NCBI GenBank assembly: GCA_026395755.1 | Contig: JAPLYC010000058.1 | Coordinates: forward strand, 1 to 33,156 | Direction: 5' to 3' | Source: Candidatus Parcubacteria bacterium | Lineage (GTDB): Bacteria; Patescibacteriota; Patescibacteriia; CAIXNZ01 | Length of the DNA stretch: 33,156 bases | Shown here: positions 1 to 15,434 of the stretch, in pieces | Layout of the letters: every line of letters starts with the position of its first letter | Numbering within the stretch: position 1 is the first letter of the stretch | Made by a program: the position numbers and the translations under genes | The notes under the pieces: generated by a model | The model's database searches: none | What the model saw: only the letters and a program-made list of their open reading frames with translations | What the model was told of the DNA's origin: nothing

Positions 1-3000
1 TTGTCATCATTAGGATCAATTTGCAGAATTATTTTATCCTCGCTGGTACTCAAAATTATCGGCTGGTTTGGCACTTTGGCCAAGGTAAAACAGCTGGCCA
101 CTGAAGTAGCCGCAGATTCGCCGGCTGCGTTATATGCTTTAACATAACGGCTATACTGTTTATTTACGTCTAAGCCTGTCTCTTCAATAGAACTCAGATT
201 AGGTTGTTCCACAAACTTCTTCAAAGCATCTGTGCCCGCTTCAAAAACCCGAAAGCCCATTTCACAAGTGGCATTATCCTTAAAATTCCAGCTGATGGAG
301 GCGGAAGTCAAAGCCTGGCAGGATGGCACAACAGCTGTCGGATCTTCAGGTGCTGCATCAGTACAACTTGAACCTAGTGAACCGGGTGGCGTGCCGACGC
401 TGAAAGTCATTCCGCTATAATCATAGGTTGAAGCCCAAACATCATTATTTGTTCCACCATTGGAATCACCGCCAGCTAACCACATGCGATTCTTAAATAA
501 CGTAGCGGCAAAAAAATCTCGTCCCTGCCAAGCCGCAGCAGATGTGACTGCTGACCAGGAATTGCCGTCAAACGCCCAGACATCATTAGTCCAAAGAGCC
601 GGAAAAAAATAAACACTGCCGATCACATAATGATTACCTCCAAAAATATAAATTTTGTCATTATAAGATAAAGCTTCAAGCGTGTAGCGAGTGGACCAGG
701 GTGCAGCGCCTAAATTTGTCCAGGTACGGCCATTGGGTGTGCTATAAACATCATTTAAACTCACGTTATTCCAACCGCCCATGATATATAATTTATCGCC
801 ACTTCCGCTATTTAAAACTGCTGCGGCATGCATATCACGAGCCGGCCAAGTCGCTTTATTAACCTGACAGGTACCACCTCCCAGACATGGCACATTATCA
901 TTACATGGAGCATCCGGAGCAGTACCACCAACGCAAAATCCGCTATACCAGTTGGTACCATTAGGGCTGAACCAGACATCATTTAAATATTGGTTAGCGT
1001 TTGTACCTCCGCAAACTGAAGCTGGACAGTTGGCGTCAGTAGCGCAAAATAGTCCCCGATTAACACCACCAAAACAAATTTTACTACATACTCCGGCTGG
1101 TATTAGTGGCAAAGAAGCCGGGCATTGCGCTGGTACATCTGCAGTGCGTCTGCAAATTGATCCGGGCCTGGTACCTCCACTGCAACGGCCAAAGACCTGA
1201 CCGCCTGTCATCCAAAGGCCGTTATTAGTTCCAGAATTAAAAATAGTAACCGTTGGTTCATAACGACCAACCCAAGCAGGCGCTGGTTCCAATGCCCAGG
1301 TAGTAGCGTCGGTTGAGGACCAGACTTCTTCAAAATTGGCTGAATTACAAATAAAACCAGGATCACAATAAGTAGCTGTAATACCTGATGAGGCATTAAT
1401 ACCATTTGTACAATAAGTCACTGTCCCGCCAGAGCACCTGCCGTAACATATACCAGTACCGCTGTCGCAACCTCCGATTAAATATAATTTATTATTAAAA
1501 TTAATTACTTTTTGGCCATGACGCTTCGCCCAAGGTGCTACTCCTGTAGGAACTTCCAGTGTCCAATCAGCGCCTTCTTCAGAACTCCAAACATCATTTT
1601 GTAATCCTCCAAATTGGGGTGATAAACCTCCAAGAAGCCATAATTTTTCCGGCGCTGGTCCGGCCGGGTCAAAACTTACTAAAGACGGCCGCCAGCGCGA
1701 ACCAAAAATGGCATCATAATTTTGCCCGATTAAGGTCCAATCACTACCATTTGACGTATGCCAGACATCGTTCCAATTACCCCGAAATCTCTCATAACCG
1801 CCCAGCAAATAAATTTGATTATCTTTAACCACGGTTTCAAAACCGCGTCTGGCGCTCCAATGTGTCCAAGTACTTGGCTCTGAAGCATAATCATAATTTT
1901 TAAAATCAACTGTTGGGGCTATCTTGGTCCAATGGACTCCTTGTTCACCAGCTTGCGTAGTGGTAACCCAGACATCATTATAATCAATTTCAGCTGAAGT
2001 AATGATCATGCCGCCCATTAAATACATTTTTTCACCCAGATCAGGCGCATCACCCGGTTCATCAAAAACAACGACCCGATGTAAAGATCTGCCGTTTTCT
2101 GCCGGATTAAGAGGATTAGGACTGCCCCATTCAGGTGAATTTGTTACTAAATTCCAGGTAATGCCGTCAACAGATGAATATATATCTTTAAAATACGTAG
2201 GCACAGAATCCCTACCGCCAAGTATCCATAATTTTTTCGGTGCCGGTCCGCTGCCGTCTTCATCCCAGGCAACCATCTGATGGGTACCACGCTTGGACCA
2301 GGCTGGCGTGGTATTGGGACAGCCAGGATCTACATCTCCGACCAAACACGTCCAATCAACACCATTACTGGTAACCCAAACGTCATCATAATTAAAAGGA
2401 GCTGGATTGGTAAAACCAAAACCGCCGGAAAGATATAATTTATTATTTAAAACAGCCAGACCAAAAAGCTGCCTTTTAGCCCAAGCCGCATTTTCTTTAC
2501 CGGATACCTGCTGCCAAGTCAAGCCATCATTGGAATACCAGCTATCATTGAACAAATTGAGAATAGGTACATCATATGTATAATCCTCATAATAATTGCC
2601 GCCGTAAAACCATAACTGGTTATTAAATTCTGTCAGTCCAAAATTTGATCTGCCATTGACAGCGCCTTTACCGGGCCAGGGTGCGGCCGTAGGTCCAACC
2701 CAATTAACGCCATTATCGGCTGAGTACCAAATATCTTTACTGATACGGTCTTCCAGCCCGCCAATTACAAATATTTTATTCTGATAATTAACGGCGCCAA
2801 ATTGGCTTCTGGCTGGCCAAGCCATATCATTTGCGCTCATTTTCTGCCAAGTTGCGCCATTGCCCGGATGACAGACATAAGAACTGCCGCTTTTAGACAC
2901 AAAAACAGAGACATCATTAACGCCTAAAAAAGTGTCATTAGTTGGCACAGCTTTCTGGTAATCATTGCCGCCAACGGGATCTAAATCATAAGTGGCAAAA

Positions 3001-5141
3001 AGCAGGCTATTTTTTTCAATCTCAGCCCAAACGCGGTCAGGTGCAGTTACGCCGGTAGTCGCGTTAATGGTCACGGACTGACCGGATGAAAGACTATTCG
3101 GAGTCAGACTGCAAGATATTTTATTTGTCTGATAATTAATATTTAAATCGTCAATTACCGGAGTAACAGAATTAAGCGTTGTCACCAGCTCAGCTTTCCA
3201 GCGTAAATCGACGCCTAGGGTGGTAAAATTATGCAAAACATTATTAGTGGCAGCTTCCCAAGTTGCACCGCCGTCATTAGACAAAGAGTAATTAATAGTC
3301 TGGCCATTGAGCGTCTCATTTGCGGCTATTTTGGCATTGGTAATAAAGTCCGTGCCCGAATTAATATTTAAACTTTGAACAATGCCGGGTGCCTGATAAT
3401 CAGGCATTATTTTAGTAAACAACACATCGGTATTCGCACCTACGTTCTGCACCCAAATTGTATATAAATTACGATCTGGGCCAAAAGTAAAAATCGGATA
3501 ATTGCCAGATACGCCCGATAAATCATCATAAGTCGGAGGGCCAATCGTCCCGTCTATTTTTGTCCAACCAGTAGCCGGGACTCCCTTACTAATATAAATA
3601 TCGGCGTCATGCCAAATCACATAGGCTTTATTATTAAGCTGATCAATCTGTAAAATGGGGTTTAATGATGCGGTGGCATTGTTAGATAAATTATCATAAG
3701 AGGTAGGCAAGATCGTCCCGTCCATTTTTGTCCAACCTGGCCCGGGCGTCCATTTAGTAAAACAAATGTCATAATTCCCGGTTGCCTCATCAGTCCAAGT
3801 AATATAAGGATTTTTTGCTGAATCCAAACCCAGCTTAATCCCAAGGGAATGAAAGCCCGGAGTATTTGATACATTGTCATAACTGGGCGAGGTAGTGCCG
3901 TCCATCTTTGTCCAACAATCATTGATACCAAATCCACAGATTATTGGGCCAGCCCCTAAACTTACTTTTGAAAAATAAACTTCGGTTTTTCCTGCAACAC
4001 TATTCGGCCAAGCAACATAAGGTATATTTGGATCTGTACTTTTATCAATTTCCATATCAAAATCTTGATAAAAAACCGCAAACGTATTCGAAATATTCTC
4101 CTGGCCTATGGTATCGCCTGCGAAATTAGTCCAACAAGCTGTTTTTCCTACCCCACAAACCGAGCCATCATCTCCCTTTTTCCATCTGATAAAATACATA
4201 TCAGCAGTCTCCCGAAAAACTATATACGGGTTATCATTCTGATCAGGAATAGAACTTCTAGAAATCTTAATAATCGGTTTAAGGCCGGTAGTAGCAGATA
4301 TAAATTCATAACCCGGGAAATTATTCATTGCGCTCCAAATAGTGCCGTTCCATCGAGTAAAGTTAAGCTGAGAACTTGTCTCAGCAACAACATAGGGATA
4401 ATTATTTGAATCAAGATCAATATCAGGCCTGAAACAATCATAAAGAGGTAATATTTCATAGCTTGTTGGCACTGTTGTACCATTCATTTTGGTCCAGGCA
4501 TTAGCTGACGGAGTCCATTTGGTAAACCGCGCTTCATGACCGACTATTTGTTCAGACCAAACAATAAACGGATTATTACTAGAGTCTAAAACTAATTTGG
4601 GCATAGATGAGACAGTTGCTGTTTGAGAAATATTTTCCGGGCCGAGAACGGTTCCCGCCATATTTGTCCAACAGTCAGTTAAACTGCCGCCGCAAACTCC
4701 ACTGCCGGCTCCGGGAGTCCATTTGGTAAAAAAGATATCATATGACCCGACATCTTCTATCCATACTACATAAGGTATATTATTACTACCGACTTTAATT
4801 ATCAGATCAGAAACACTGGCAGAAGTTGGTAAACTAGAAATATTTTCATATCCGATAGCAGTATTGGCCGCATTAACCCACTCTTTCCCCCACAACCTGG
4901 CTTTGCCAGCCGGAGCAACCGCAGTTTCCCATTTAGATGTGGTATTAGTAACATCCTTAGCTACTGCATCATGGAAATCTTCAGTATATGACAGATAATC
5001 AGCTCTTACCTCCTGCAGATAATTATAGCTGAAAATTACAGCTAAAATTAAAACAAAAACCAAACTCAAAATAAGTTTAGTTTTAAAACTAAAAAATTTC
5101 AAGAAAAATGCTCTTTTTCTGATTTTCCTTGGATTTAACAT
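1..5141 (-). CDS. Very large exported/membrane-anchored protein with N-terminal propeller-like repeats and C-terminal kelch-like repeats plus FN3-like segment (3' end beyond window)
   Basis: Manual reverse translation from CAT at 5139-5141 gives an open frame through position 1 (MLNPRKIRKRAFFLKFFSFKTKLILSLVFVLILAVIFSYNYLQEVRADYL...). There is an N-terminal TM/signal segment, ~60-aa repeats (ENIS...PYVVW...FTKWTPG..CWTKMDGT), then repeated kelch-like blocks (W..R....F...KIY..GG....NDVW.S.DG..W). The frame is not in the supplied ORF track, probably because it has no stop inside the window. Confidence 0.85.
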   Translation of the reverse strand, partial: MLNPRKIRKRAFFLKFFSFKTKLILSLVFVLILAVIFSYNYLQEVRADYLSYTEDFHDAVAKDVTNTTSKWETAVAPAGKARLWGKEWVNAANTAIGYENISSLPTSASVSDLIIKVGSNNIPYVVWIEDVGSYDIFFTKWTPGAGSGVCGGSLTDCWTNMAGTVLGPENISQTATVSSMPKLVLDSSNNPFIVWSEQIVGHEARFTKWTPSANAWTKMNGTTVPTSYEILPLYDCFRPDIDLDSNNYPYVVAETSSQLNFTRWNGTIWSAMNNFPGYEFISATTGLKPIIKISRSSIPDQNDNPYIVFRETADMYFIRWKKGDDGSVCGVGKTACWTNFAGDTIGQENISNTFAVFYQDFDMEIDKSTDPNIPYVAWPNSVAGKTEVYFSKVSLGAGPIICGFGINDCWTKMDGTTSPSYDNVSNTPGFHSLGIKLGLDSAKNPYITWTDEATGNYDICFTKWTPGPGWTKMDGTILPTSYDNLSNNATASLNPILQIDQLNNKAYVIWHDADIYISKGVPATGWTKIDGTIGPPTYDDLSGVSGNYPIFTFGPDRNLYTIWVQNVGANTDVLFTKIMPDYQAPGIVQSLNINSGTDFITNAKIAANETLNGQTINYSLSNDGGATWEAATNNVLHNFTTLGVDLRWKAELVTTLNSVTPVIDDLNINYQTNKISCSLTPNSLSSGQSVTINATTGVTAPDRVWAEIEKNSLLFATYDLDPVGGNDYQKAVPTNDTFLGVNDVSVFVSKSGSSYVCHPGNGATWQKMSANDMAWPARSQFGAVNYQNKIFVIGGLEDRISKDIWYSADNGVNWVGPTAAPWPGKGAVNGRSNFGLTEFNNQLWFYGGNYYEDYTYDVPILNLFNDSWYSNDGLTWQQVSGKENAAWAKRQLFGLAVLNNKLYLSGGFGFTNPAPFNYDDVWVTSNGVDWTCLVGDVDPGCPNTTPAWSKRGTHQMVAWDEDGSGPAPKKLWILGGRDSVPTYFKDIYSSVDGITWNLVTNSPEWGSPNPLNPAENGRSLHRVVVFDEPGDAPDLGEKMYLMGGMIITSAEIDYNDVWVTTTQAGEQGVHWTKIAPTVDFKNYDYASEPSTWTHWSARRGFETVVKDNQIYLLGGYERFRGNWNDVWHTSNGSDWTLIGQNYDAIFGSRWRPSLVSFDPAGPAPEKLWLLGGLSPQFGGLQNDVWSSEEGADWTLEVPTGVAPWAKRHGQKVINFNNKLYLIGGCDSGTGICYGRCSGGTVTYCTNGINASSGITATYCDPGFICNSANFEEVWSSTDATTWALEPAPAWVGRYEPTVTIFNSGTNNGLWMTGGQVFGRCSGGTRPGSICRRTADVPAQCPASLPLIPAGVCSKICFGGVNRGLFCATDANCPASVCGGTNANQYLNDVWFSPNGTNWYSGFCVGGTAPDAPCNDNVPCLGGGTCQVNKATWPARDMHAAAVLNSGSGDKLYIMGGWNNVSLNDVYSTPNGRTWTNLGAAPWSTRYTLEALSYNDKIYIFGGNHYVIGSVYFFPALWTNDVWAFDGNSWSAVTSAAAWQGRDFFAATLFKNRMWLAGGDSNGGTNNDVWASTYDYSGMTFSVGTPPGSLGSSCTDAAPEDPTAVVPSCQALTSASISWNFKDNATCEMGFRVFEAGTDALKKFVEQPNLSSIEETGLDVNKQYSRYVKAYNAAGESAATSVASCFTLAKVPNQPIILSTSEDKIILQIDPNDD

Positions 5142-5613: not shown

Positions 5614-6078
5614 TTATTTAATTAAAAATCTTTCAATAAAAAAATATGCCAAAATCATATAAGATACAAAATTCATCAATAAGGATGAGACAAAAAGGTC
5701 TTTTTTACTTACGCTTTTAAAAAATAAGAGCAGCACTAGCCACTCAACAAGAATAGTCACAAAAAAACTGGTAACAAAAACCAGGGACTCCATTTGCAAA
5801 ACATTTAAACTCCTGCCCCAAAATAACATAAAAATAAGAGCGCCAAGAATATAAGTAACAATATTAGCGAGCAAAACAGCTACAATTATTTTCCAAAGCC
5901 GAATTTGATATTTTAGCAATTTACCCAAGGTCAAGTATAATACAAACATTTCCAAAACAATAATCGCGAAAAATAAGAATGGATCATAATTCATAAATGG
6001 CATATAACCATCCGCCCGCGCAATTTCAGGTAACATTAATAAAACTACAATGAAACTAAATAAAAAATATTTCTTCAT
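5614..6078 (-). CDS. Small multi-pass membrane protein with signal peptide, paralog A of tandem pair
   Basis: 154 aa, hydrophobic segments, about the same sequence throughout as the adjacent 6116..6580 ORF (YMPFM.Y.PFLF.AIIVLEM..LY..LGKLLKY.I..WKII.AV..AN..TY.LG). Confidence 0.85.
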   Translation of the reverse strand: MKKYFLFSFIVVLLMLPEIARADGYMPFMNYDPFLFFAIIVLEMFVLYLTLGKLLKYQIRLWKIIVAVLLANIVTYILGALIFMLFWGRSLNVLQMESLVFVTSFFVTILVEWLVLLLFFKSVSKKDLFVSSLLMNFVSYMILAYFFIERFLIK

Positions 6079-6115: not shown

Positions 6116-6580
6116 TTATTTAATTAAAAATCTTTGGACAAAGAAATAAGTCAAAATTGAATAAGAAACAAAATTCATCAAGAAAGAGGCGGCCAAAAGA
6201 TCCTTTTTTCTAACTGTTTTAAAAAATAGAATCAGGATTAGCCATTCAACTAAAATGGTCACAATAAAACTGGTGATTAAGACTAAAAACTCCATCTGTA
6301 AAACAGTTGAAGTCCTGCGCCAATATAACAGATAAACAAAACCTCCAAGAAAATAAGTTATTAAATTAGCGCTAAAAACCGCCAATATAATTTTCCAAAT
6401 CTTTATTGGATATTTTAATAATTTACCTAAAACCCAGTATAATATTAACATTTCTAACACAATAATCGCTAGAAATAAAAAAGGGTTATACTCCATAAAC
6501 GGCATATAAAGATCTGCCCAAACAACCTCAGGCAATATCAATGAGACTAAAACAAAACTTAACAAAAATATTCGTTTCAT
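6116..6580 (-). CDS. Small multi-pass membrane protein with signal peptide, paralog B of tandem pair
   Basis: 154 aa, same length and clearly homologous to 5614..6078. Confidence 0.85.
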   Translation of the reverse strand: MKRIFLLSFVLVSLILPEVVWADLYMPFMEYNPFLFLAIIVLEMLILYWVLGKLLKYPIKIWKIILAVFSANLITYFLGGFVYLLYWRRTSTVLQMEFLVLITSFIVTILVEWLILILFFKTVRKKDLLAASFLMNFVSYSILTYFFVQRFLIK

Positions 6581-8752: not shown

Positions 8753-9208
8753 TTGGAAAAACAAATCATAATTATGAGAGGCCTTTCAGGCTCAGGCAAA
8801 TCAACCTATCACAAAAAATATTACCCTGAGGCGGTAGTCTGCAGCGCCGATGAATTTTTCATAACGCCAACTGACGGAGAGTACAAACATGATCCGGCAA
8901 TGATTGGCCAGGCTCACCAGCAATGTTTTGCCAAATTTCTGAACGCAGTCGCCGAAGGCCAACCAGTGATTGTGGTGGATAACACCAATATCCAACGCTG
9001 GGAAGTCTCGCCTTATTACATGACCGGCATGGTCTTTGGTTATCAGGTGCTGATCGTCACCATTGATTGCACTCCCCAGACTGCCACCCAACGCGGAATC
9101 CATGGCACACCAATTGAACGAAATCAGCAATATTACCAAAATTTTGAATCTTCTCTTCCTTTCTGGCGTGAATTAAAAATCACCACTGAACCCAAAAGCA
9201 CCACCTAG
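8753..9208 (+). CDS. P-loop kinase/ATPase (polynucleotide-kinase/N4BP2-like AAA)
   Basis: MRGLSGSGKSTYHKKYYPEAVVCSADEFF...VIVVDNTNIQRWEV..Y: Walker A GLSGSGKST and the VDNTN motif typical of PNK/N4BP2-like kinases. TTG start preceded by AAGGAGAAG. Confidence 0.8.
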   Translation: MEKQIIIMRGLSGSGKSTYHKKYYPEAVVCSADEFFITPTDGEYKHDPAMIGQAHQQCFAKFLNAVAEGQPVIVVDNTNIQRWEVSPYYMTGMVFGYQVLIVTIDCTPQTATQRGIHGTPIERNQQYYQNFESSLPFWRELKITTEPKSTT

Positions 9209-9248: not shown

Positions 9249-9987
9249 TTAAATAGCTGATAAATAAACGCCGGATAAAATCAAATTGCCAACCAGCAAA
9301 ACAACTATGGCCGCCCCGGCTAAAAAACTGCCCATAGGCAGCATATCTCCGATTTTTTTCTGTTTCGTCAATAATAATATCGTGGCAATGATACCGCCGA
9401 TTATATACGCTAAAGCTAATGTCAGTACAGTAAATTGCCAGCCCAGCATTACTCCCAATAAAGCACCCAGTTTAACATCACCCAAGCCCACCCATTTTTG
9501 AGCTGACAACAGATATTGAGCGCCGAAAAACCCGGCACCGATAATTCCCCCTCCTAACAATTCCCAATACCCAATTCCCAATTAAACTGATAAAAAAGGC
9601 CGGCCAAATAATTTTATCCAGAATTAAATAATGACGCCAGTCAAAAATCAGAATAAGCAGTAAAGTAGAAATAAAAAATAAATCCCGGACTAAAAACCAG
9701 CTAAAGGCTCCGTATTTTATAAAAACTAAGGCAAAAAGAATACCGGTTACCAGTTCAATAAAAAAATATGGTTTACCAATCGGCTTTTTACAGAAGCGGC
9801 AATTCCCTTTTAACCGTAAAAAACTTAGCAAAGGTATCAAATCCCGATTCCATATTTTTTTTCGGCAGTGAGGACAAAAAGAACGCCCCCAAAGAGGGAC
9901 TTTTTTTGCCAAACGATATAGGCAGCAATTTAAAAAACTACCAGCAATAATACCTAACAAAAAGAAAAACAAAATGTTTATTATCAT
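9249..9987 (-). pseudogene. pilD: Type IV prepilin peptidase (PilD-like), split into two overlapping frames by a +1 frameshift at ~9561-9581
   Basis: Upstream frame (9478..9987) has MIINILFFFLLGIIAGSFLNCCLYRLAKK..., two CxxC pairs (CPHC, CRFC) and TM helices. Downstream frame (9249..9581) has VGLGDVKLGALLG (GxGDxK active-site motif) and C-terminal TM helices. Together they form a full-length prepilin peptidase. May be phase-OFF rather than dead. Confidence 0.85.
9561..9583 (-). repeat. Heptanucleotide tandem repeat, ~3 units, at the prepilin peptidase frameshift
   Basis: Plus strand TTCCCAA TACCCAA TTCCCAA TT; minus strand TTGGGAA TTGGGTA TTGGGAA. Removal of one 7-nt unit joins the two ORFs. 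Confidence 0.8.
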
Positions 9988-10069: not shown

Positions 10070-11803
10070 TTATTCAATGGTAGGATATGCGGCTAAAATT
10101 TCAGGCGTGACATTATAAATTGTCTGGCCAAAATAATGAGCGGCTAAGTCTTGCAAAGTTTTAATATGACGCTTAAAACTATTTTCTATGATATAGATTT
10201 TAAAATCATTGATAGCGCGCAGCAAAGTACCGTCAGGATAAACTTTTATGCCCAAAACCGCCGGCTCTTCTGTCTCAGTTACAATTTGCGCATCAATATT
10301 TTCAGTTTCGCAAGTTTGTTTCTGGGCGGCAAATTGAGCCTCGGTCCACTCGCAAACTTCAGGAGTTTTCGTGATCATGTTCCTGGTTTGCTTGCCATCA
10401 ACGCAATCTGACCAATCGCTGTATGTTACCTCGGTGCAAACTGGAGCGATACCACCACCATAACTACCGCCGGAAACATCCGGCTTTGAATTACTGATGG
10501 TGAAAGTTGAACCGCTGGTTAAAACAATATTATTATAGGGAAAACCGCCGTTTATTGTTCTAACTGAAACTGTAGCTGTTAAATTACCAGTATTATTTAT
10601 GACCAAGTTGTAAGTAGCTTGTGAAGCATCAATTCTGGGCATATAAATATCAGTTGGCAAACCATTGTCAATATCCAAAAATGTCGCTTCAAATTGATTT
10701 AATGGCTTGCTATAAACAACTTTAATGGTTAAAATATCGCCATTTTTAACAGTAATTTTAGTAGCATAGGTTTCACCACCGTCTATTGAGTACAAAATTG
10801 ATGCCGTGGGTACATTGCAATTCCCTTTTTCTTCTTCAGTAACATCAGCTGATGCTGCATGGCTAAATTTAATCATGCTAATAACCATAGATAAATCGCC
10901 CGGGCCAATATAACCGTCGCCATCTAAATCGGCAGCTACTGTACGAGGGAGCTCTGACTTCATCATTTGAAGTATCAAGCCTATGTCTTTATAATCAATT
11001 TTATTGTCGCCATTGGCGTCACCTTTTGTACAACTGTTTGAGCTAGAATCTAATGCGCGTTTTGCAGCAGCTTCGGCGCTAAGCTCAGCAAGCTCAGCTA
11101 CTATTTCAGGATGAGCCGGCAAGTCAATTTTATATGTTTTTATTAAAAGGGAGATATCGCCGGCAGAAATAAAGCCGTCCAAATCCAAATCTGCGCATGG
11201 ATTACGCGGTTCCAATCCCTTTGCCATTTGGATCATAACTTCTGTATCATATTTATTGATCAGTCCGTCGCCATTTAAATCACCTGTAATGCCGTCACAT
11301 AAAGGATTATTAGGCAATTGATAAGGAATAGTTGGCACTGCTTCAACTAAGGGTTCGGGAATAGCTTCCAGAACCTGGGGTTCGGCTAAAATTTTCTCAT
11401 TATTTTGCTTGCCTTGTTCTTTAATTTCCTGGATTATAAGGGAAGCATCACCAGGACCGATAATATCATCGCCATCCAAATCAACCTTGGAATCGGCTGG
11501 AATTTGGCCAGTAATCATATCCTGAATTAAATCAGTATCCTGATTATTAAGTTCACCATCACCATTGGCATCACCCGTGATGACTGCGGGCTGATTGTCA
11601 ATAGAATCAACGACTGAGGGTTCGGTTACAGCAATGGATCCGGTGCTTGGAGCGACAACTGTTTCAGTGCTAGGAGCACTATCAATTGTTGATTCGGTCG
11701 TAACCGCATCTTCAGCAACTGCCACTAAGGGTAAAACCAATAATTGGCTGGCAATTATCAGTGTAATTAGAGTCCAATAAAAATTTTTCTTTGTCATAAT
11801 CAT
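10070..11803 (-). CDS. Secreted protein with three dockerin type I modules and a C-terminal cell-surface-like domain
   Basis: 577 aa, signal peptide (MIMTKKNFYWTLITLIIASQLLVLPLVAVAED). Dockerin-like EF-hand pairs: GDANGDGELNNQDTDLI...DLDGDDIIGPGDASLI; GDLNGDGLINKYDTEVMI...DLDLDGFISAGDISLL; GDANGDNKIDYKDIGLIL...DLDGDGYIGPGDLSMV. Confidence 0.85.
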   Translation of the reverse strand: MIMTKKNFYWTLITLIIASQLLVLPLVAVAEDAVTTESTIDSAPSTETVVAPSTGSIAVTEPSVVDSIDNQPAVITGDANGDGELNNQDTDLIQDMITGQIPADSKVDLDGDDIIGPGDASLIIQEIKEQGKQNNEKILAEPQVLEAIPEPLVEAVPTIPYQLPNNPLCDGITGDLNGDGLINKYDTEVMIQMAKGLEPRNPCADLDLDGFISAGDISLLIKTYKIDLPAHPEIVAELAELSAEAAAKRALDSSSNSCTKGDANGDNKIDYKDIGLILQMMKSELPRTVAADLDGDGYIGPGDLSMVISMIKFSHAASADVTEEEKGNCNVPTASILYSIDGGETYATKITVKNGDILTIKVVYSKPLNQFEATFLDIDNGLPTDIYMPRIDASQATYNLVINNTGNLTATVSVRTINGGFPYNNIVLTSGSTFTISNSKPDVSGGSYGGGIAPVCTEVTYSDWSDCVDGKQTRNMITKTPEVCEWTEAQFAAQKQTCETENIDAQIVTETEEPAVLGIKVYPDGTLLRAINDFKIYIIENSFKRHIKTLQDLAAHYFGQTIYNVTPEILAAYPTIE

Positions 11804-12068: not shown

Positions 12069-12539
12069 TTATTTCTTATTAATACCTTCGGCATTAGCGC
12101 TATATTGACCAGCCAGCCCCAGACTACTGGGCTTTTCCGTGTTAAAAATAATTTCATAATCCTTGACATTACCCTGGTATAAATATTGCCTGTCAGCCAA
12201 AGGATCTTTGGGGATCGTAGCCATATAAGTAGTATCCTGACTGCAGGGAGTTTCCAAAGAAACTATAGCCCCGACTGCCTTGGCACATAATTTTTCACTT
12301 CCCTTTTGTCCCAAAACAACGGATTTATCAACTACCGGATACTGATCTTCATCACTATGATAAAATTCCAAAGCAGTTCGAACTTGTCTGATATCGCTGA
12401 TTCTTCTGGCATCCCTGGCCTTGGCCCGCTGATCATTTAAGGCAATGACCGAAATAGTCGCTAAAAGTATTATAATGGCGACAACAATCAACAATTCTAC
12501 CAATGAAAATCCTCCTTGTTTTTTATTATCTTTAATCAT
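12069..12539 (-). CDS. Type IV pilin-like / pseudopilin
   Basis: N-terminus KKQGGFSLVELLIVVAIIILLATISVIALNDQRAKARDARRISDIRQVRTALEFYHSDEDQYP: classic prepilin cleavage site and pseudopilin pattern. Confidence 0.95.
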   Translation of the reverse strand: MIKDNKKQGGFSLVELLIVVAIIILLATISVIALNDQRAKARDARRISDIRQVRTALEFYHSDEDQYPVVDKSVVLGQKGSEKLCAKAVGAIVSLETPCSQDTTYMATIPKDPLADRQYLYQGNVKDYEIIFNTEKPSSLGLAGQYSANAEGINKK

Positions 12540-12543
12540 ATGG

Positions 12544-13011
12544 TTAAAAACATGGTTGACTAATTATTTGAATATTATTAGCGCAATTTTTTCCTTTTTT
12601 CAAGCCTAAATTTTTAAAATTGGAAACCAGATTAAATTCCAGCTGATAATTTTGCCCGTCATCACTTCTTTTATACCGATAGATATTGCCTTCAGCCAAA
12701 TATTGATTTGGAATCGGTTTTAATATATTTTGACTGCAATTGTCAGTTATTTTCTTAAAACCGTCCCCGCATAATTTTTCCGTACCGCTATATGAATCGC
12801 TTAGATTTATTATGCCGTTAGACTCGGGATAAAAATTATTTTTCAATAAATAGACTTCCAGCCCGCTTTTAATCTGATCGATTTCGGAAAAAACCTGAAT
12901 ATCTTTATTTTTTAAAGACAAATACCAAATTACGGCGACATCCATTGCCACTACCATAACAATAAGCAAAATAAAAATCAATACCTCTATTTTTGTAAAG
13001 CCGTTTTTCAT
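12544..13011 (-). CDS. Divergent prepilin-like protein
   Basis: N-terminus MKNGFTKIEVLIFILLIVMVVAMDVAVIWYLSLKNKDIQVFSEIDQIKSGLEVYLLKNNFYPES: G-F-T-x-x-E prepilin motif and pilin-like follow-on, tandem with a canonical pilin. Confidence 0.85.
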   Translation of the reverse strand: MKNGFTKIEVLIFILLIVMVVAMDVAVIWYLSLKNKDIQVFSEIDQIKSGLEVYLLKNNFYPESNGIINLSDSYSGTEKLCGDGFKKITDNCSQNILKPIPNQYLAEGNIYRYKRSDDGQNYQLEFNLVSNFKNLGLKKGKNCANNIQIISQPCF

Positions 13012-14354: not shown

Positions 14355-15434
14355 TTAGATTATATCTCTCATAGCCAAACCCAGGGCAACGGCAAAACGG
14401 GGACCGATTTCCCAAAGCACAGGCCTTAATTCTTCCGGATAAATTACCCTGGCCCAGGGGTCGCCGATATAAGTTCTGACATTTAATTGCTCAGACAGAT
14501 ATTTATCCAAAAAATTACCGAGCAGAGCGCCGCCGCCTGTTAAAATTATTTTATCCAGTATTTTATCCTGGCCGAATTGTTCATAATATGTCTGCAGCAA
14601 ATATTTTATTTCCGTAACTAAAGGAGCCAAACCATCTTCAATCGGTTTCGGGAAATTTGTCATATTTTCCTGCTGCATCATGATGGCCAAATCCAGCTTA
14701 TAATTTTCTGCTTCGGAAATTGCGATATTCAAACTGTCAGCCACTGCCTTCGTGATCACTGAGCCGCCATAATTGATGCTGCGGTTAATAATCGGGATTG
14801 CCAAATTAACAATTTCCACGGAAGTTAAATTTTCGCCAATATCAATCAGCATGATTAAGGACTTATCAATACCGACCAAAGAACGGACTAAAGAAAAAGA
14901 CTCAATATCCAGGTTGGTTAATTGAAAGTTGGCCTGCTTAAAAATATCAACATAATTTCTTACAACATCCTTGGTCGATGCAGTAATTAAAAATCTGGCC
15001 GTGGATATTTTGGCTCCTGACGCTGCTTTTTCCACTTCGGAATCAGGGATGAGATTAAAATCAAAAACCATATCCTGCAAGGGCACGGCGGAAATCTTTT
15101 TCAATTCCTCGGCCAAAAGACCCTTGATTTTACTTTTATTATCAACATCTTTTTTTATCAGATTGGGCAATTTAATTACCGAAGTAAAAACCGAAGCCAC
15201 AGGCAAAGCAGCCGAAGCCAGATTAGTGGTAACTCCGGACCGATCCGCAAGCTCTTTCATCAAAGTAGAAGTCAAGTTTTTATTACTGATAAAATCACCC
15301 TTTAAAATATCGCTTTTTGATTCGGTATAGCCGTAAGTAATCAATTTCGGCCTGCCGTTTTCCGATACCAACTCCACCAACTTGATGGAATCAGGCGATA
15401 AATCAATACCTAAATAGCTGACTGGTTTAGCCAT
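14355..15434 (-). CDS. pilM: Type IV pilus assembly protein PilM
   Basis: 359 aa, YLGIDLSPDSIKLVEL.. N-terminus, actin-like fold motifs (MLIDIGENLTSVEIV, IILTGGGALLGNFLDKYLSEQL). Confidence 0.92.
   Translation of the reverse strand: MAKPVSYLGIDLSPDSIKLVELVSENGRPKLITYGYTESKSDILKGDFISNKNLTSTLMKELADRSGVTTNLASAALPVASVFTSVIKLPNLIKKDVDNKSKIKGLLAEELKKISAVPLQDMVFDFNLIPDSEVEKAASGAKISTARFLITASTKDVVRNYVDIFKQANFQLTNLDIESFSLVRSLVGIDKSLIMLIDIGENLTSVEIVNLAIPIINRSINYGGSVITKAVADSLNIAISEAENYKLDLAIMMQQENMTNFPKPIEDGLAPLVTEIKYLLQTYYEQFGQDKILDKIILTGGGALLGNFLDKYLSEQLNVRTYIGDPWARVIYPEELRPVLWEIGPRFAVALGLAMRDII

Follow-up and report, generated by a model that had tools for sequence, protein, structure and literature searches.

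The prepilin peptidase locus

The DNA analysed here (the window) is a stretch of 33,156 nucleotides, contig C69 of a metagenome-assembled genome (MAG) that belongs to an uncultured member of the candidate phyla radiation and comprises 1.46 Mb in 120 contigs, with a completeness of 99.2% and a contamination of 6.57%. On its minus strand, between positions 9987 and 9249, the coding sequence of an A24 prepilin peptidase is split into two frames. Frame 0 runs from an ATG to its stop over 169 amino acids, carries the CxxC pairs CPHC and CRFC and matches Pfam PF06750 (E 7e-26). Frame 1 opens directly after a TAA, ends at 9249 and matches PF01478 (E 2e-6). The N-terminal A24_N_bact domain with two CxxC pairs and the C-terminal Peptidase_A24 domain with a GxGD motif, both characteristic of PilD, are thus present, the motifs are retained in both halves and no additional stops occur; what is lacking is a single continuous frame. 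The gene encodes PilD, the principal prepilin peptidase for type IV pili, in a Buchananbacteria-like member of the Patescibacteria. Two separate functional half-proteins were rejected as an explanation, since the N-terminal piece ends, past the heptamer array at the junction, in about 26 out-of-frame residues, and start-codon support was not found for the C-terminal piece, whose TTG at 9581 is a mechanical ORF start.

Table 1. Positions of the split gene, of the elements at its junction and of neighbouring pilus genes in the window.
Feature	Position	Strand	Remark
Prepilin peptidase, N-terminal frame (A24_N_bact)	9478..9987	-	both CxxC pairs and first catalytic Asp region
Prepilin peptidase, C-terminal frame (Peptidase_A24)	9249..9581	-	GLGDVK motif; open from array to natural stop
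Heptamer array TTGGGAA-TTGGGTA-TTGGGAA-TTG	9558..9581	-	junction of the frames; about 14 nt under the length predicted from the family
Four G-runs (GGGAATTGGGTATTGGGAATTGTTAGGAGGGGG)	9547..9579	-	G-quadruplex-like with one long loop, by pattern match only
Tandem in-frame AGG AGG codons	9550..9555	-	directly past the array; conceivable low-level +1 frameshift site
Prepilin-like protein (N_methyl, T2SSG)	12069..12539	-	Pfam and synteny
Companion protein adjoining the prepilin	12544..13011	-	conserved in synteny; no Pfam match
PilM	14355..15434	-	

The stops by themselves confine the change of frame to about 105 nt. Since the N-terminal piece covers positions 2–141 of the family profile and the C-terminal piece positions 140–243, the change is placed in the heptamer array, which on sequence comparison is the sole junction compatible with the homologues. 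An earlier note on this DNA, made from the letters alone, had called the gene a prepilin peptidase, located the split and the array at these positions and seen that the two coincide; domain searches and homology bear it out on each of these points.

The split gene keeps the conserved gene order of its family, pilM, response regulator, pilins, pilD and ligA, and the conserved block comprises pilM, the response regulator, two pilin-region genes, ligA and an S30AE gene. In relatives, pilD has a pilin gene as its immediate neighbour on one side and ligA on the other. In the window, pilD is flanked by a dockerin-domain gene (10070–11803) and an AAA_33 gene (8753–9208), neither of which relatives have at the corresponding place. 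The remaining pilus genes have no internal stops and include three PF00437 ATPases, PF00482 matches and five N_methyl proteins; a platform protein is likewise present and free of stops. Furthermore, a second A24-type gene on contig C120 (L001, 2–1432), conserved in much of the family, encodes a protein of about 477 amino acids with a GGDAK motif, an earlier Asp and a long C-terminal part, and with no CxxC pairs. Because of this second gene, for which pilin processing is putative, loss of the split gene need not abolish all prepilin processing; the claim of the earlier note that every prepilin in the cell would stay immature is therefore not established.

Two further observations concern the remainder of the window. 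Adjacent genes at 5614–6078 and 6116–6580, each for a membrane protein of 154 amino acids, have one counterpart in locus L087 and probably arose by tandem duplication. A surface-type protein of more than 1713 amino acids (3–5141, minus strand) runs off the contig end; its N-terminus is signal-like, and some of its segments are repeated and kelch-like in appearance.

The gene in relatives

Among the named genomes of the collection, the closest relatives are MAGs designated Candidatus Buchananbacteria, Uhrbacteria, Parcubacteria and Falkowbacteria. Matches to the gene were obtained in 87 of the 95 genomes searched (that of the window included), and the only truncated relative among them (G071) is a very short frame that runs into a contig end. 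One uninterrupted full-length frame is present in each of the 71 loci examined in relatives, some of which are the same gene reached via two routes, and no broken allele was found at the junction site in any of them. Uniform decay of the gene across the lineage, an outcome that the earlier note had named as speaking against its proposal, is accordingly rejected. One different species of the same genus is without the array. No second strain copy of the gene was found in the same genome, where the N-terminal piece gives one match only.

Length of the array

The array consists of three units plus TTG, the middle unit (TTGGGTA) being deviant. Tandem Repeats Finder reports a period of 7, 3.7 copies and a score of 45; with scores of 46, 47 and 60 for other arrays in the window, it is unexceptional as a bare tandem repeat. 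The frame is open with 2, 5, 8 or 11 units, one unit deleted giving a protein of 243 amino acids, two added 250 and five added 257. Against a profile of 29 relatives, from which the window was excluded, the five-unit allele scored 304.0 bits, followed by eight (294.7), eleven (287.9) and two units (286.4), the present pieces reaching 171 and 118 bits. Scores with a profile of seven members of the same family were 331.0, 321.9, 314.0 and 311.9 bits for five, eight, eleven and two units, so that both profiles rank the alleles identically, with five units best.

The segment from the LD to the GxGD motif points in the same direction. It measures 48 amino acids in 24 of the 29 relatives and 54–58 in the remainder; five units would give exactly 48, two units 41. 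In a wider set searched with a cruder motif match the segment is never shorter than 47 amino acids (the values 56 and 62 in that match, where an Asp further upstream was taken, stand for 48 and 54). When unspecified bases were inserted, or bases deleted, near the junction, an insertion of 14 nt was the best size tried with both profiles. In the alignment, the N-terminal frame through LIGNWVLGI and the C-terminal frame from LGIGYWELLGGG both match relatives such as LLNFILGFTWLDLLTG; read in either frame, the letters of the array fit the family, at positions next to each other. Segment length, profile scores and this adjacent-frame fit together suggest that, compared with relatives, the array lacks two repeat units (14 letters), the present allele being best described as two heptamers short. 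Since the loop length varies in a minority of relatives, a length of 48 amino acids is probable, not certain.

Deletion of one unit, proposed earlier as the functional state, does open the frame over 243 amino acids as claimed; the resulting segment, however, falls 7 amino acids under the modal relative, and the addition of two units, which matches the mode, is to be preferred. A simple sequencing error of 1–2 nt is disfavoured, as the best 1-nt deletion or 2-nt insertion scored about 7–10 bits below the 14-nt insertion and left the segment still shorter than in any relative. A foreign array merely inserted into a native gene was rejected as well: it would lengthen the segment, as in locus L102 of a Staskawiczbacteria MAG (+7 amino acids), and the segment of the window is shorter.

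Segment length bears also on translational recoding, one of the alternatives listed in the earlier note, by which the three-unit allele would yield a full-length protein through +1 frameshifting, for instance at the AGG AGG codons and perhaps aided by the G-rich stretch. Frame 0 reads GTT AGG AGG GGG at this site, the four G-runs overlap it, and AGG_AGG tandem codons cause frameshifting in E. coli (PMC5009743). The product, however, would have about 43 amino acids between the motifs, below every relative, and AGG, with 24 of the 176 arginine codons in the window genes, is not particularly rare there. Moreover, a conserved split frame or shift site, as expected of a programmed +1 frameshift gene, is absent from all 71 loci, and since no relative uses a split gene there is no conserved recoding signal. 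We consider recoding very improbable. An Rfam search of the window gave no matches.

A dispersed heptamer family

The array at the junction belongs to a dispersed heptamer family, ATTRGGW (GGGWATT). In the source genome TTGGGWATTGGGWATTG has 41 matches with up to two mismatches and its reversed control 1; ATTRGGWATTRGGWATTRGG has 45 and its control 3; it is as a member of this family (41 versus 1), and not as a bare tandem repeat, that the array is exceptional. The ATTRGGW arrays of the source genome have mostly 3–4 units and lie outside long frames, mostly in intergenic regions. With at most one mismatch, ATTRGGWATTRGGWATTRGG is present in 22 of 95 genomes, and a longer form of the pattern in 12 of 381 members of the class.

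Some arrays lie inside genes in frame and encode NSQFPIP- or LGIGNWV-like peptides. Prepilin peptidases carry them in three places: in the window; in a Staskawiczbacteria MAG (L102, 3449 onward, ATTGGAAATTGGGTATTGGGAATTGGAA), at nearly the same site, in frame and with 7 extra residues; and in another class member (G025; L141, 1506–1533), as an in-frame insertion in another loop and on the opposite strand. Many arrays in the class-member survey, which was not designed to detect broken genes, lie within long open frames, which shows that coding sequences tolerate them.

In the source genome an array is also found in the coding sequence of radA, identified from its translation and not by a family search. 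Two variants of this gene at contig ends (L079, at the end of C12, and L080, at the start of C35) are 96.8% identical over 371 nt and have an identical array with the same number of units. From the two variants it follows that the MAG mixes strains; their equal unit number is weak evidence, from one pair, that the arrays are stable. No paper on such a dispersed heptamer family in Patescibacteria was found in the literature searched, and none on heptanucleotide repeats in Parcubacteria or on slipped-strand mispairing in Patescibacteria MAGs.

Origin of the frameshift

The frameshift is explained most economically by slippage in the array. We favour, at somewhat better than even confidence, the reading that the sampled genotype has truly lost 14 nt in this way. 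The length-conserving in-frame form would have five units, as against three in the assembled form. In the simplest history, 14-nt direct repeats slipped or misaligned once during replication; this would have removed two units, shifting the frame by one and leaving a frameshifted, probably non-functional PilD. The event was presumably recent, and the allele is probably null and probably present in the cells sampled. Should the array have been seeded here from another part of the genome, more than one contraction may have been involved.

A fault of assembly or consensus, by which the cells would carry an in-frame array, most likely of five units, and the assembly of a strain-mixed metagenome would have dropped two units, is in our estimation rather unlikely, although it has several points in its favour. 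The gene is intact in all relatives and the other pilus genes are intact too, the deficit is an exact number of units, and arrays with a 14-nt period are of a sequence type prone to miscounts by assemblers; since the MAG mixes strains, as its contamination and the two radA variants indicate, a faulty consensus is possible. Yet a five-unit array measures only 38 nt, less than the usual short-read k-mers and reads, the other window genes checked are uninterrupted and the radA array was assembled identically in two contigs.

The earlier note had preferred a phase-variable gene. In such a gene, frequent, reversible changes in unit number would switch the peptidase between ON (2, 5 or 8 units) and OFF. 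A tandem unit of 7 nt, not a multiple of 3, does lie within the coding sequence, both halves of the gene are intact, the array is part of a repeat family, and three units correspond to the lowest cut-off in a survey of heptanucleotide simple sequence repeats (SSRs; PMC2651432). Contingency loci are, however, also marked by many uninterrupted units, and here there are three, the middle one different, compared with 13–38 copies at hmw promoters (PMC2651432). In addition, no relative has a broken allele at the junction, the gene-borne arrays of other class members lie in open frames, and the radA variants kept their unit number over about 3% divergence. The dispersed nature of the family and its in-frame arrays in other genes favour an occasional slippage loss, or an assembly fault, over a contingency switch; reversible phase variation is thus unsupported, and we regard it as quite unlikely. 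Still less likely is a broader version, by which the dispersed heptamer would seed slippage-prone arrays in Patescibacteria genes, and repeatedly in prepilin peptidases, and so create a heritable switch of pilus maturation, perhaps affecting host attachment.

If the favoured contraction is real, the window represents a genotype, occurring in nature in an uncultured and probably host-dependent lineage, that has lost its main prepilin peptidase and kept its other pilus genes, which bears on the dispensability of pili in these bacteria. If the split is an artefact, it is a warning that genes can be broken at heptamer arrays when metagenomes are assembled. By entering genes in frame, the heptamer family provides Patescibacteria with a general source of variation in coding sequences.

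Comparison with known systems

The gene resembles PilD (PF06750 and PF01478; MEROPS A24A) in both domains, in the two CxxC pairs, in LD and GLGDVK and in its neighbourhood of pilus genes; it differs in that its frame is off by one base (modulo 3) between the catalytic motifs, whereas all relatives examined are intact. With the heptanucleotide and tetranucleotide SSR contingency loci of Haemophilus influenzae, among them the heptanucleotide loci upstream of the hmw genes with 13–38 copies (PMC2651432), the array has in common a short tandem unit that is not a multiple of 3 and its occurrence in a gene of a surface-structure pathway; in contrast to these, it consists of three imperfect units, lies in the middle of the gene and not near its start, and is without evident allele variation. 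The heptamer family itself is similar to the dispersed heptamers GGGNATC of Xanthomonas and Nostoc, which are under-represented on the coding strand of genes (PMC4692102), and TAACTGA of Beggiatoaceae (PMC4679880), these likewise having few, heterogeneous units scattered over the genome, mainly in intergenic regions, and with GGGNATC it also shares the G-run pattern. It is distinguished from both by its unit, ATTRGGW (GGGWATT), by its occurrence in Patescibacteria and by the presence of some of its members inside coding genes.
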